Part shown: one piece after another, positions 60,778 to 62,966 of the stretch
Position numbering within the stretch: the first letter of the stretch is position 1
Layout: each line of letters begins with the position of its first letter
Assembly: GCF_025751515.1 (NCBI RefSeq)
Contig: NZ_JAOWLE010000001.1
Span: forward strand, 496,001 to 560,000
DNA from: Actibacterium sp. XHP0104
GTDB taxonomy: Bacteria > Pseudomonadota > Alphaproteobacteria > Rhodobacterales > Rhodobacteraceae
DNA length: 64,000 nucleotides
Reading direction: 5' to 3'
Position numbers and translations under genes: made by a program
The notes under the pieces: model-generated
Seen by the model: only the letters and a program-made list of their open reading frames with translations
The model's database searches: none
Told to the model about the DNA's origin: nothing

Positions 60778-61320
60778 CTAGGCCGCCACCTGTTCGTGGC
60801 AGATCTGGGTTGTGTCTTGCGGCGACAGGGGCACGGACAAAAGCGTGCAGTAGGCGCCGGTTGCGTCAGTGCGGTGATAGGCGCAGTCTTTGCAGATGCC
60901 GAAGGCGCGGCCGCCATTCGCCTTTAGCCGGCTGGCCAGCAGGGCGGACAGCCCGGTGCGCAGCTGCTCTTGATCGCGGGGCGGGATAGACGTGATCGCC
61001 TCGGCAAAGGCGGTCTGGCGGCTGGTCAGGGCCAGGCCTTCGGGCGTCAGGTCATAGCTGATCGAGCGTTTGTCGATCTGCGAGCGGTGCTCGGTCACAT
61101 AACCTTTGCGTACAAGCGATTTCAGCGTCTGCGACATGGTTCCGCGCGTGGTGCCGAGATATTCGGCCACATGCGAGGGTGCGCGCGAGAACCGGTTGGC
61201 GCGGGCCAGGTAATCAAGCGCCGCGATCTGGGCCGGGTTCAGGTCGATCTCCCAGGTTTCGGCGGCATCCAGGCGGGCCAGCCGATTGATCAGGGCGCGA
61301 ATTTGAGCGGTCGTATCCAT
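60778..61320 (-). CDS. MarR-family regulator with a C-terminal four-cysteine cluster
   Basis: 180-residue regulator. The winged helix covers residues 25-100 (LNPAQIAALDYLARANRFSRAPSHVAEYLGTTRGTMSQTLKSLVRKGYV, then YDLTPEGLAL). The C-terminal 45 residues are unusual, with cysteines C143, C146, C158 and C174 (CKDCAYH, AYCTL, QICHE). This C-x2-C-x11-C-x15-C pattern, with nearby histidines, suggests a metal or Fe-S sensing site. It is divergent from the secreted protein-HTHP-thioredoxin-like genes and probably regulates them through the repeated TATCGAGTC motifs between them. Confidence 0.9.
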   Translation of the reverse strand: MDTTAQIRALINRLARLDAAETWEIDLNPAQIAALDYLARANRFSRAPSHVAEYLGTTRGTMSQTLKSLVRKGYVTEHRSQIDKRSISYDLTPEGLALTSRQTAFAEAITSIPPRDQEQLRTGLSALLASRLKANGGRAFGICKDCAYHRTDATGAYCTLLSVPLSPQDTTQICHEQVAA

Positions 61321-61330
61321 GGCTATTTAA

Positions 61331-61385
61331 TATCGAGTCAAAATCAATATTGCAAGACTGTCGATCAAATGGTATCGAGTCGATA
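61331..61385. promoter_or_regulatory. Paired TATCGAGTC operator-like motifs
   Basis: TATCGAGTC occurs at 61331-61339 and 61373-61381, exactly 42 bases apart (four helical turns). The second copy is part of a perfect palindrome TATCGAGTCGATA (61373-61385); the first lies in an AATATCGAG...CAATATT inverted arrangement (61329-61351). They sit between the divergent MarR gene and the secreted-protein gene, a typical place for MarR sites. Confidence 0.65.
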
Positions 61386-61404
61386 TTAGATAGAGGAGAA
61401 CCCC

Positions 61405-62154
61405 ATGAAACATTTCATTTTGCCAAGCGCCCTTGCGGTGGTGCTGACGGGTGGCGCCTATGCGGCCGAAAATCATGCCATCAACCAGCCGGGCGCCATC
61501 GTTTCGGCGGCCGATGAGGCGCGGGTGGCGTCGTTTGACATTCTGGCGGCCCATGTTCACCGCGACGGCGCGCAGGTGACGTTCCACATGACGCTCAATG
61601 GCGTTGCGGGCGCCACCCAGCCCGAGCCGGTGGGCGCCCTGGCGGGTGCACCGGTTCTGTCCTATGTCTGGCCGACCTCGCTTGACCCGTCGGTTGTCGG
61701 GTTCGAAGGGGGGACGGGCATCCTGGCGCTTGCGGCCACCAGCCATCCCGATTTCGACGACACCCCGCTTTATGACGAAAACAACGATGGCGATCCGGGC
61801 AATGACGGCTTGCTGTGGCACAGCCACTGGGTTGTGCTGACCCCGACCGAGGCCTGCGGCGCCGGAGCGCTGGGGGTGCGCGACATCCCCGAGGGCACAA
61901 CGCCCGCGATGCCGGCGACCTGGCCGGGCCTGCCGATCTTTATCGACAGCCCGGGCCATACGCCGCAGTTCGACGGCCCCGAGATTGCGCTGACGGTGCC
62001 TTTTGCCGACCCGGATGCGGTGGCGGGCGCGGCCTATGACGGGGTGACATCGGCCTTGCGGGTGAATGAAAACATTCATGCACCGCTGCTATGCGTGACG
62101 GATGTGTTCGACATTGCCTCGGGTGACCTTACACTGCCTGGCAAGATCAACTGA
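61405..62154 (+). CDS. Secreted hypothetical protein in the HTHP module
   Basis: 249-residue protein with a signal peptide (KHFILPSALAVVLTGGAYAAEN). The mature part contains ASFDILAAHVHRDGAQVTFHMTLNGVAGATQP, VLSYVWPTSLDPSVVGFEGGTGILALAATSHPDFDDTPL, an Asp/Asn-rich YDENNDGDPGNDGLLWHSHWVVL segment that looks like a calcium-binding loop plus histidines, and a C-terminal domain with NENIHAPLLCVTDVFDI. I do not recognise the family. GAGGAG lies seven bases before the ATG. Cotranscription with HTHP (45 bases downstream) suggests a periplasmic role in the same redox or heme process. Confidence 0.75.
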   Translation: MKHFILPSALAVVLTGGAYAAENHAINQPGAIVSAADEARVASFDILAAHVHRDGAQVTFHMTLNGVAGATQPEPVGALAGAPVLSYVWPTSLDPSVVGFEGGTGILALAATSHPDFDDTPLYDENNDGDPGNDGLLWHSHWVVLTPTEACGAGALGVRDIPEGTTPAMPATWPGLPIFIDSPGHTPQFDGPEIALTVPFADPDAVAGAAYDGVTSALRVNENIHAPLLCVTDVFDIASGDLTLPGKIN

Positions 62155-62199
62155 CCTTTCGCCGTGCCCACCGGGCACGGCCCTTTACCGGAGACTGAC

Positions 62200-62430
62200 A
62201 TGACCGACACCTGGCTGCCCACCCTGCGTACCGTAACCCCGCAAGAAGGCTATGAACTGGCCGTCAAGCTGTCTCGGGTTGCGGTGAAGATGACCCAGCC
62301 CGACGCATCCGTGCGCGAGACCTTGCGCGCTGTCTATGAAAAGGATGCCGATGCGCTGATCGCGGTGTCGTCGGTCGTGGCGACGCATTTTCAGACCATC
62401 GCCGCTGCGAATAATTATTGGAGGGATTGA
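62200..62430 (+). CDS. Hexameric tyrosine-coordinated heme protein (HTHP)
   Basis: 76-residue protein closely matching, from memory, the HTHP of Ruegeria (Silicibacter) pomeroyi, a hexamer with tyrosinate-bound heme showing peroxidase and catalase activity. Tyr46 in LRAVYEKDADALIAVSSVVATHFQTIAAANNYW is the expected heme ligand; Arg26 and His63 are candidates for its distal and proximal partners. The ATG at 62200 follows GGAGA at five bases. The stop overlaps the next start (TGATG). It lacks a signal peptide, so it is cytoplasmic. Confidence 0.93.
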   Translation: MTDTWLPTLRTVTPQEGYELAVKLSRVAVKMTQPDASVRETLRAVYEKDADALIAVSSVVATHFQTIAAANNYWRD

Positions 62431-62966
62431 TGACCGCCACTCGCCCGGAACTGCCCGATTGGTCGGTGGATCAATGGTTCAATACGCTAGGGCCGCTGTC
62501 TCTGGCGGATCTGCGCGGCAAGGTCGTGGTGATCGAGGCCTTTCAGATGCTGTGCCCCGGCTGCGTATCGCATGGGCTGCCGCTGGCGCAGCAGGTGCAT
62601 GATGTCTTTTCCAAAGAGGATGTGGCCGTGATCGGTCTGCATACGGTGTTCGAGCATCACGCCGCGATGACGCCTGTGTCATTGCAGGCCTTCCTGCACG
62701 AATATCGCATCACGTTTCCGGTGGGGGTGGATACGCCCGGCAAGGGCGATCTGCCCCTCACGATGGAGCGTTATGGCTTACGTGGCACGCCGTCGTTGCT
62801 GGTGGTTGACCGGAACGGGGGGCTGGCGGCGCATCATTTCGGGCAGGTCAGCGCGTTGCGCCTGGGGGCCGAGATCGCGTCGGTGATCTGTGAGGCCCCG
62901 CCGCAGGCCGCGTCGGCCACCGGAACGGGTGCCGCCGGATGCGACGAGGACGGCTGCGTCATCTGA
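62430..62966 (+). CDS. Thioredoxin-fold (TlpA/peroxiredoxin-like) protein with CPGC site
   Basis: 178-residue protein of the redoxin fold: LPDWSVDQWFNTLGPLSLADLRGKVVVIEAFQMLCPGCVSHGLP carries C42-P-G-C45, the redox pair. RYGLRGTPSLLVVDRNGG holds the cis-proline near residue 122. A second pair, C171 and C176, lies at the extreme C-terminus (GCDEDGC), which could resolve or relay a disulfide or bind metal. No signal peptide is seen. The start is set by the one-base overlap with HTHP and by GGAGGG just before it. It is probably the reductant partner of the heme protein. Confidence 0.88.
   Translation: MTATRPELPDWSVDQWFNTLGPLSLADLRGKVVVIEAFQMLCPGCVSHGLPLAQQVHDVFSKEDVAVIGLHTVFEHHAAMTPVSLQAFLHEYRITFPVGVDTPGKGDLPLTMERYGLRGTPSLLVVDRNGGLAAHHFGQVSALRLGAEIASVICEAPPQAASATGTGAAGCDEDGCVI

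Follow-up and report, generated by a model that had tools for sequence, protein, structure and literature searches.

We analysed a 64,000-nucleotide stretch of the Actibacterium sp. XHP0104 genome (the window), with emphasis on four genes near its end. Based on the list of open reading frames (ORFs), a MarR-type regulator with four cysteines in a C-terminal tail (cys4-MarR; 60778..61320, minus strand) is divergent from three co-directional plus-strand genes: sec (61405..62154), hthp (62200..62430) and rdx (62430..62966). These encode a predicted exported protein of 249 aa without a name (Sec), a 76-aa hexameric tyrosine-coordinated heme protein (HTHP) and an AhpC-TSA/TlpA-like redoxin with a CPGC motif (178 aa from ATG), respectively. 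A longer GTG ORF for HTHP opens at 62164; the start at 62200 was used. The marR–sec gap holds two operator-like palindromes: TATCGAGTCAAAA on the marR side (61331..61343), with two mismatches to the pattern TAKCGASTCGMTA, and TATCGAGTCGATA on the sec side (61373..61385), an exact copy located 42 nt from the first. The original prediction for this locus had the four genes right, as ORFs and family matches confirm, and was silent on the palindromes. It overstated the "tight overlaps" of the operon: hthp and rdx share 1 nt (TGATG), the sole overlap, and 45 nt separate sec from hthp. The unit of MarR, operator and Sec is the stronger finding; no earlier description of the cluster, its MarR or Sec was found in the literature searched, most subscription journals lying outside the search.

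The four-cysteine regulator

The window MarR is a 180-aa protein with a winged helix and the tail FGxC-x2-C-x11-CxLL-x12-CxE, and matches MarR_2 (PF12802: E 4.8e-12, 46.3 bits against a cut-off of 27). In the comparison of predicted folds it aligns with 4yif_C (Z 13.0, root-mean-square deviation (rmsd) 2.8, 133 aligned residues) and with further solved MarRs; the solved MarRs among the matches listed stop aligning at residue 141, before the tail cysteines. Its complete set of cysteines is C143, C146, C158 and C174, i.e. C-x2-C-x11-C-x15-C, exactly as previously stated. Their conservation among orthologues had been set beforehand as a test of that prediction, and the four cysteines are aligned in 78/78 orthologues, the last Cys of one (L176) sitting in a degenerate tail. 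The motif FGxC-x2-C...CxLL...CxE is present in 77/78. In a second set of 18 Sec loci, all 15 MarRs found (three of them from the window's own family) carry a related tail, one with a degenerate last Cys; the marR gene of Lelliottia appears shortened. Cys4 tails are also present on 8/8 plasmid MarRs from three phyla (Deinococcus, Thermus, Hymenobacter, Spirosoma, Enterobacter, Polaromonas, Octadecabacter and Sinorhizobium), several of which were recovered by whole-protein similarity, tail included. Of these, the MarRs of Deinococcus, Hymenobacter and Spirosoma are located close to Sec.

Concerning known redox regulators of the OhrR/MarR type, the likeness consists of the winged-helix MarR core, the divergent operon and the palindromic operator. 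MarRs of the OhrR type, which respond to organic peroxides, have a reactive cysteine close to the N-terminus, whereas the window MarR has no Cys in the DNA-binding core, its only cysteines being those of the C-terminal tail; the N-terminal reactive Cys is absent. The NCBIfam OhrR (Vibrio) model scores 22.2 bits on it against a cut-off of 200.

Operator and gene linkage

Across 78 marR–sec gaps, TAKCGASTCGMTA is found as an exact copy in 43, with at most one mismatch in 75 and as a pair (up to three mismatches) in 74; single-base shuffles of the same gaps give averages of 0, 0.03 and 0.07, respectively. The two copies are 28 nt apart in 44 gaps and 42–43 nt apart in 23. Conservation across the gaps also points to a TTGCAA element, which is present in 72/78; TTGCAA-N16-18-TAYYW is seen on the marR side in 52/78 gaps and on the sec side in just 16/78. 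In 20 Sec genomes there are 16 exact copies of TAKCGASTCGMTA, distributed over 11 genomes, each copy flanked by the marR match and the sec match, whereas the reversed-pattern control gives 7 exact copies in the same genomes. The sole exact copy in the window genome (2.69 Mb) is the one at 61373..61385. Among the family loci fetched, those with MarR have the operator with at most one mismatch in 19/19 cases; no such site is found in the two loci without MarR (L243, L244) or in the locus cut at the gap. Since all 16 exact copies lie between marR and sec, the regulatory circuit, as far as the distribution of sites tells, is local to this locus. A wider regulon in the window genome was considered and rejected: at up to two mismatches there are 66 forward matches vs 171 for the reversed control, and the exact site occurs at this locus alone. 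A single site with one mismatch (L196) was inspected by eye and taken as chance.

A Sec profile scan of genome contigs confirmed at least 562 relatives, of which the best 80 were kept for neighbourhood counts; these lean to Alphaproteobacteria because the best-scoring ones were kept. Among these best 80 of at least 562 loci, a divergent MarR is found in 77, MOSC in 39, the redoxin in 29 and HTHP in 15. In a survey of 394 genomes of the window's family, MarRs above 190 bits (a cut-off of our own choice) are present in 20 genomes, all of which are among the 22 that contain Sec. MarR adjoins Sec in 20/23 family loci, and one further pair (G323) is split by contig ends; two genomes, G162 (with a broken Sec) and G263, contain Sec and no MarR above 190 bits. 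In the former (L244; G162:C107:6067-6725) Sec is in two pieces, MarR and operator are missing, and the copy is probably decaying. Linkage, the conserved Cys4 tail and an operator whose exact copies in 20 genomes are all in the gap support what the original prediction proposed, namely that the MarR regulates the co-directional operon it faces: the cys4-MarR is very probably the dedicated regulator of that operon, and the family to which it belongs, together with where the sites are located, suggests that it acts as a repressor.

HTHP was expected beforehand to be linked to these genes, and it rarely is. It is present in 49/394 family genomes and adjoins Sec in three of these 49; no HTHP is adjacent to Sec in 46/49, although G320 has one 7.7 kb from Sec. 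One other family genome (G304) has HTHP, Sec, MarR and the redoxin, together with MOSC; around the remaining family HTHPs, Sec is found in G323 (at a contig edge) and the redoxin alone in G009. An HTHP-centred neighbourhood was accordingly dropped as the organising principle. Weak MarR matches near HTHP (L054 and L066; 32–34%, tail not covered) were not counted as a regulator. Judged from these neighbourhoods, the core unit is cys4-MarR and Sec, and HTHP is not part of it because it adjoins Sec in so few HTHP-bearing genomes; it is rather an optional passenger of Sec loci. HTHP is more common in family genomes with Sec (12/22) than in those without (37/372; p 9e-7, kinship ignored).

The accessory genes come and go, as is read from the many changes they require on the Sec tree (at least 11 for HTHP, 23 for the redoxin and 14 for MOSC; the trees are built on few columns and weakly supported). 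MOSC is found in 8 and the redoxin in 6 of the 22 family Sec loci beyond the window, and PF03473 (MOSC) has no match in the window genome. The Ruegeria (Silicibacter) pomeroyi megaplasmid carries MOSC-MarR | Sec-HTHP-redoxin-MOSC-oxidoreductase, so the crystallised R. pomeroyi HTHP (PDB 2oyy) is encoded in the same cluster type as that of the window: the order MarR | Sec HTHP redoxin is shared, and the two MOSC genes and the PDR/VanB-type oxidoreductase are the difference. Other plasmids have MOSC-MarR | Sec (Phaeobacter), MOSC-MarR | Sec-redoxin (Leisingera sp. M527) or MarR-Sec-redoxin all in one direction (Shinella, Defluviimonas and Pararhizobium), and some plasmid redoxins are found without Sec. 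In two Sphingomonadales plasmids (L109 3992-5507 and L110 4029-5519) a small Thioredoxin_3-like protein replaces Sec between the cys4-MarR and the redoxin. A nirK gene beside the cassette in one Phaeobacter plasmid is not recurrent (0/80 and 0/22 Sec loci).

The proteins of the facing operon

The N-terminus of Sec is hydrophobic, with a cleavage site read by eye as AYA-AE, and no Pfam or NCBIfam family scores above cut-off. Sec is found in Pseudomonadota, Deinococcota and Bacteroidota. In 22 sequences from these three phyla the invariant positions include H114, P115, D116, D119, W138, H139, H141 and W142 (H-P-D-x2-D ... W-H-x-H-W), and the His/Asp set is plausibly a metal site, the likely ligands being His114, Asp116, Asp119, His139 and His141. 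Two Bacteroidota sequences do not retain both cysteines of Sec. The AF2 model is of moderate quality (mean pLDDT 77.4) and predicted to be mostly beta. A Foldseek search with it gave no match at E<=0.001, and by sequence there are no solved relatives (best E 0.24). Fold matches of the model are weak and mixed (2ivf_C, 1i82_A and 7b04_C at rows 1, 6 and 36); 2ivf_C, an EB_dh structure, gives Z 6.4 and rmsd 4.3 over 149 aligned residues, tied with immunoglobulin folds. EB_dh (ethylbenzene dehydrogenase gamma, heme b) is absent among the Pfam matches of Sec, and the EB_dh/CBM9-like heme fold that these three rows suggested was set aside as doubtful, since comparing profiles with 18 EB_dh stretches gave a probability of just 0.4% (E 0.17).

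The invariant His/Asp set also fits a system for homeostasis of copper or a similar metal, with Sec as an exported metal binder and MarR as the metal sensor. Several Sec homologues would have His as their first residue once the signal is cleaved (AxA|H, by eye), as this explanation would have it, but the window Sec has no N-terminal His, and a scan of ten recurrent neighbour clusters gave none with the name of a metal transporter or chaperone; we regard metal homeostasis as very unlikely.

The window HTHP matches PF11534 over its full length (E 1.6e-38, 131.3 bits against a cut-off of 25, profile positions 1–72 of 72), aligns colinearly with the solved protein of R. pomeroyi (2oyy_A, likewise 76 aa) and shares 81.6% identity over 76 aa with the product of the R. 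pomeroyi gene, which bears out the earlier assignment. Y46 and R26, which we take to be the numbers of the heme-ligand Tyr and the distal Arg, are present, and each is kept in 15/16 Sec-linked HTHPs. The ligand types are those given in PMC4813847. In the literature searched, no biological role for HTHP was found.

In the redoxin, both family profiles score above cut-off (PF00578, AhpC-TSA: E 6.1e-10, 39.5 bits vs 26; PF08534, Redoxin: E 7.8e-7, 29.4 bits vs 26.6), in line with the CPGC thioredoxin-fold protein described before. CPGC lies at residues 42–45 and is well conserved (C42 in 28/30; P43, G44 and C45 each in 29/30); no signal peptide is seen. The second Cys pair that had been described near the C-terminus exists (C171/C176) but is only partly conserved (C171 in 18/30, C176 in 21/30).

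The original prediction, as taken here, is of a dedicated peroxide/heme detoxification operon with HTHP at the centre, as the main enzyme. The R. pomeroyi HTHP gives an electrocatalytic H2O2 reduction signal, according to PMC4813847, and the redoxin co-occurs with HTHP in Sec loci (11/16 with HTHP vs 19/65 without, p 0.008); catalase is found on three plasmids, near Sec-HTHP in Hymenobacter, MarR-Sec-redoxin in Pararhizobium and the redoxin in Phaeobacter piscinae. Set against this, 65 of the best 80 Sec loci have no HTHP, PMC4813847 terms the peroxidatic activity towards NADH low (3 U/mg), and catalase is found in 0/51 family HTHP loci, 2 of the best 80 Sec loci and 1/22 family Sec loci. A detoxification operon built around HTHP is unlikely. 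Peroxide as the signal stays one option given the three plasmids, with the family HTHP loci and their NO/low-oxygen neighbours (NO, nitric oxide) speaking against it.

These neighbours are found in 32/51 HTHP loci beyond the window (L031-L081) vs 0/38 random regions (40 drawn from contigs already matched, two dropped for overlap with known HTHP loci). They comprise NsrR-like Rrf2 (29 loci), DUF6522 (24), truncated globin (21), DUF2189 (12), cbb3 oxidase (11), hemerythrin (9) and NnrS (8). The query set contained nine proteins, four of which (NsrR-like, DUF6522, DUF2189 and one globin) had themselves been taken from HTHP loci and so match one locus each by construction. The neighbourhoods suggest a role of family HTHPs in NO or low-oxygen stress.

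Proposed metal centre, signal and mechanism

We favour the reading, with a probability of roughly 0.45, that the locus is a self-contained autoregulated stress cassette in which the cys4-MarR carries a metal centre that is likelier to be Fe-S than structural zinc. The switch would be metal-centred, probably Fe-S, and would sense redox or NO. A cys4-MarR dimer would bind the two TAKCGASTCGMTA palindromes and repress in both the marR and the sec directions; damage to the metal centre of the tail by oxidant or NO would release MarR from the paired sites, and sec-hthp-rdx and marR would then be expressed. Sec would be an exported metalloprotein, HTHP a cytosolic heme protein handling peroxide or NO-type species, and the CPGC redoxin would repair or supply thiols; the MOSC gene, absent here, joins on the marR side in relatives. 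As for the original idea of a metal- or redox-sensed detoxification unit, the conserved, metal-like Cys4 tail and the facing operon agree with it, while HTHP does not appear to be its centre.

Fe-S is favoured because a second, lower-scoring branch of cys4-MarRs adjoins Fe-S carrier genes. This branch is present in 25 family genomes, and in the 20 loci read (L205-L224) the neighbours are an NUBPL/Mrp-like ATPase (7/20), a NifU-DUF6522 protein (10/20) and a sigma-70-family factor (7/20); the counts come from strict clustering and the domains from one representative each. In one locus (L216:4115-7125) the regulator lies beside an NUBPL/Mrp-like ATPase fused to a GBBH-like domain and the NifU-DUF6522 protein. 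The tail order FGxC-x2-C...C...C is shared in 20/20 second-branch MarRs, which differ from that of the window by an extra cysteine (CxC) and by their partners. The operator with at most one mismatch is found near the marR start in 5/20 loci and in none of 40 background regions (776 kb).

The tail could instead bind zinc, either as a thiol switch oxidised by HOCl, disulfide stress or electrophiles, or as structural zinc with a small ligand in the MarR pocket. The C-x2-C ... C ... C arrangement with predicted short beta strands is zinc-ribbon-like by eye, and thiol proteins are among the neighbours (the redoxin, GST in 8/80 Sec loci, Thioredoxin_3 and a glutaredoxin-domain protein). The Fe-S carrier genes beside the second branch argue the other way, and the AdcR zinc MarR model (NCBIfam NF038251) stays far under its cut-off on the window MarR (17.8 vs 175 bits), although zinc in the tail would still be compatible with that score. 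We regard zinc as a real but lesser possibility.

NsrR, IscR and RirA are Fe-S regulators of the Rrf2 family, in which cluster loss frees the promoter, and the mode proposed here resembles theirs. NsrR is a [4Fe-4S] NO sensor according to PMC4432287 and PMC5411485. In the window MarR the protein family and cysteine arrangement are different, and the cluster is putative. Rrf2 (PF02082) is not among the 13 families matched at E up to 0.1 by the proteins of the locus.

The neighbourhoods in Hymenobacter, Deinococcus, Defluviimonas and Thermus speak for NO as a possible signal. The Deinococcus plasmid has Rrf2-MarR-Sec, and in Defluviimonas MarR-Sec-redoxin adjoins NnrS, hemerythrin, globin and Rrf2; the Shinella cassette has Rrf2 and cbb3 nearby. 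The Hymenobacter volaticus plasmid (L286, 630-8095) carries hmpA, Rrf2, catalase, Sec, HTHP, protoglobin, DUF2024, cys4-MarR and MOSC as a single cluster, here in the Bacteroidota. In Thermus oshimai pTHEOS01 (L290, 4502-5531) a cys4-MarR lies immediately downstream of the gene for a cytochrome P460.

Several observations weigh against an Fe-S cassette responding to NO. Four cysteines with C-x2-C suit zinc equally, and the five MarR models differ (mean pLDDT 62.7 to 88.9). The operator is common to only 5/20 loci of the Fe-S branch, whose genomes are not richer in HTHP (4/25, p 0.53). NO/low-oxygen clusters account for just 3 of the best 80 Sec loci and 1/22 family loci. HTHPs linked to Sec largely group by themselves (5 changes vs 17.6 shuffled, 0/500 as low, on a poorly resolved tree; 2 changes on a FastTree tree), so it is mainly the other HTHPs that have an NO context. 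Also, the Leisingera caerulea plasmids have Sec-redoxin apart from MarR-MOSC.

More broadly, and with somewhat less assurance, cys4-tailed MarRs may be a cross-phylum family of Fe-S-cluster repressors responding to NO or redox, the MarR equivalent of NsrR/IscR. TAKCGASTCGMTA would be read by one lineage, and the branches would guard either Fe-S carrier genes or Sec, a new exported metalloprotein founding a new family; HTHP, redoxin and MOSC would be interchangeable partners of Sec. If the tail does bind Fe-S, the MarR family gains an Fe-S sensing branch. HTHP has a solved crystal structure and is in use for sensor work; now that the crystallised protein can be assigned to a defined operon that has its own regulator and operator, its role becomes testable in R. 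pomeroyi. Sec itself is a conserved exported protein of three phyla that Pfam and NCBIfam have yet to name.

A terminator search found none at the locus, and a sigma-70 promoter scan found none in the marR–sec gap; two promoter-like sites are located further down on the plus strand, at 62108 and 62388. The flanking ORFs, named by eye, are DEAD-box helicase-like and trigger-factor-like.

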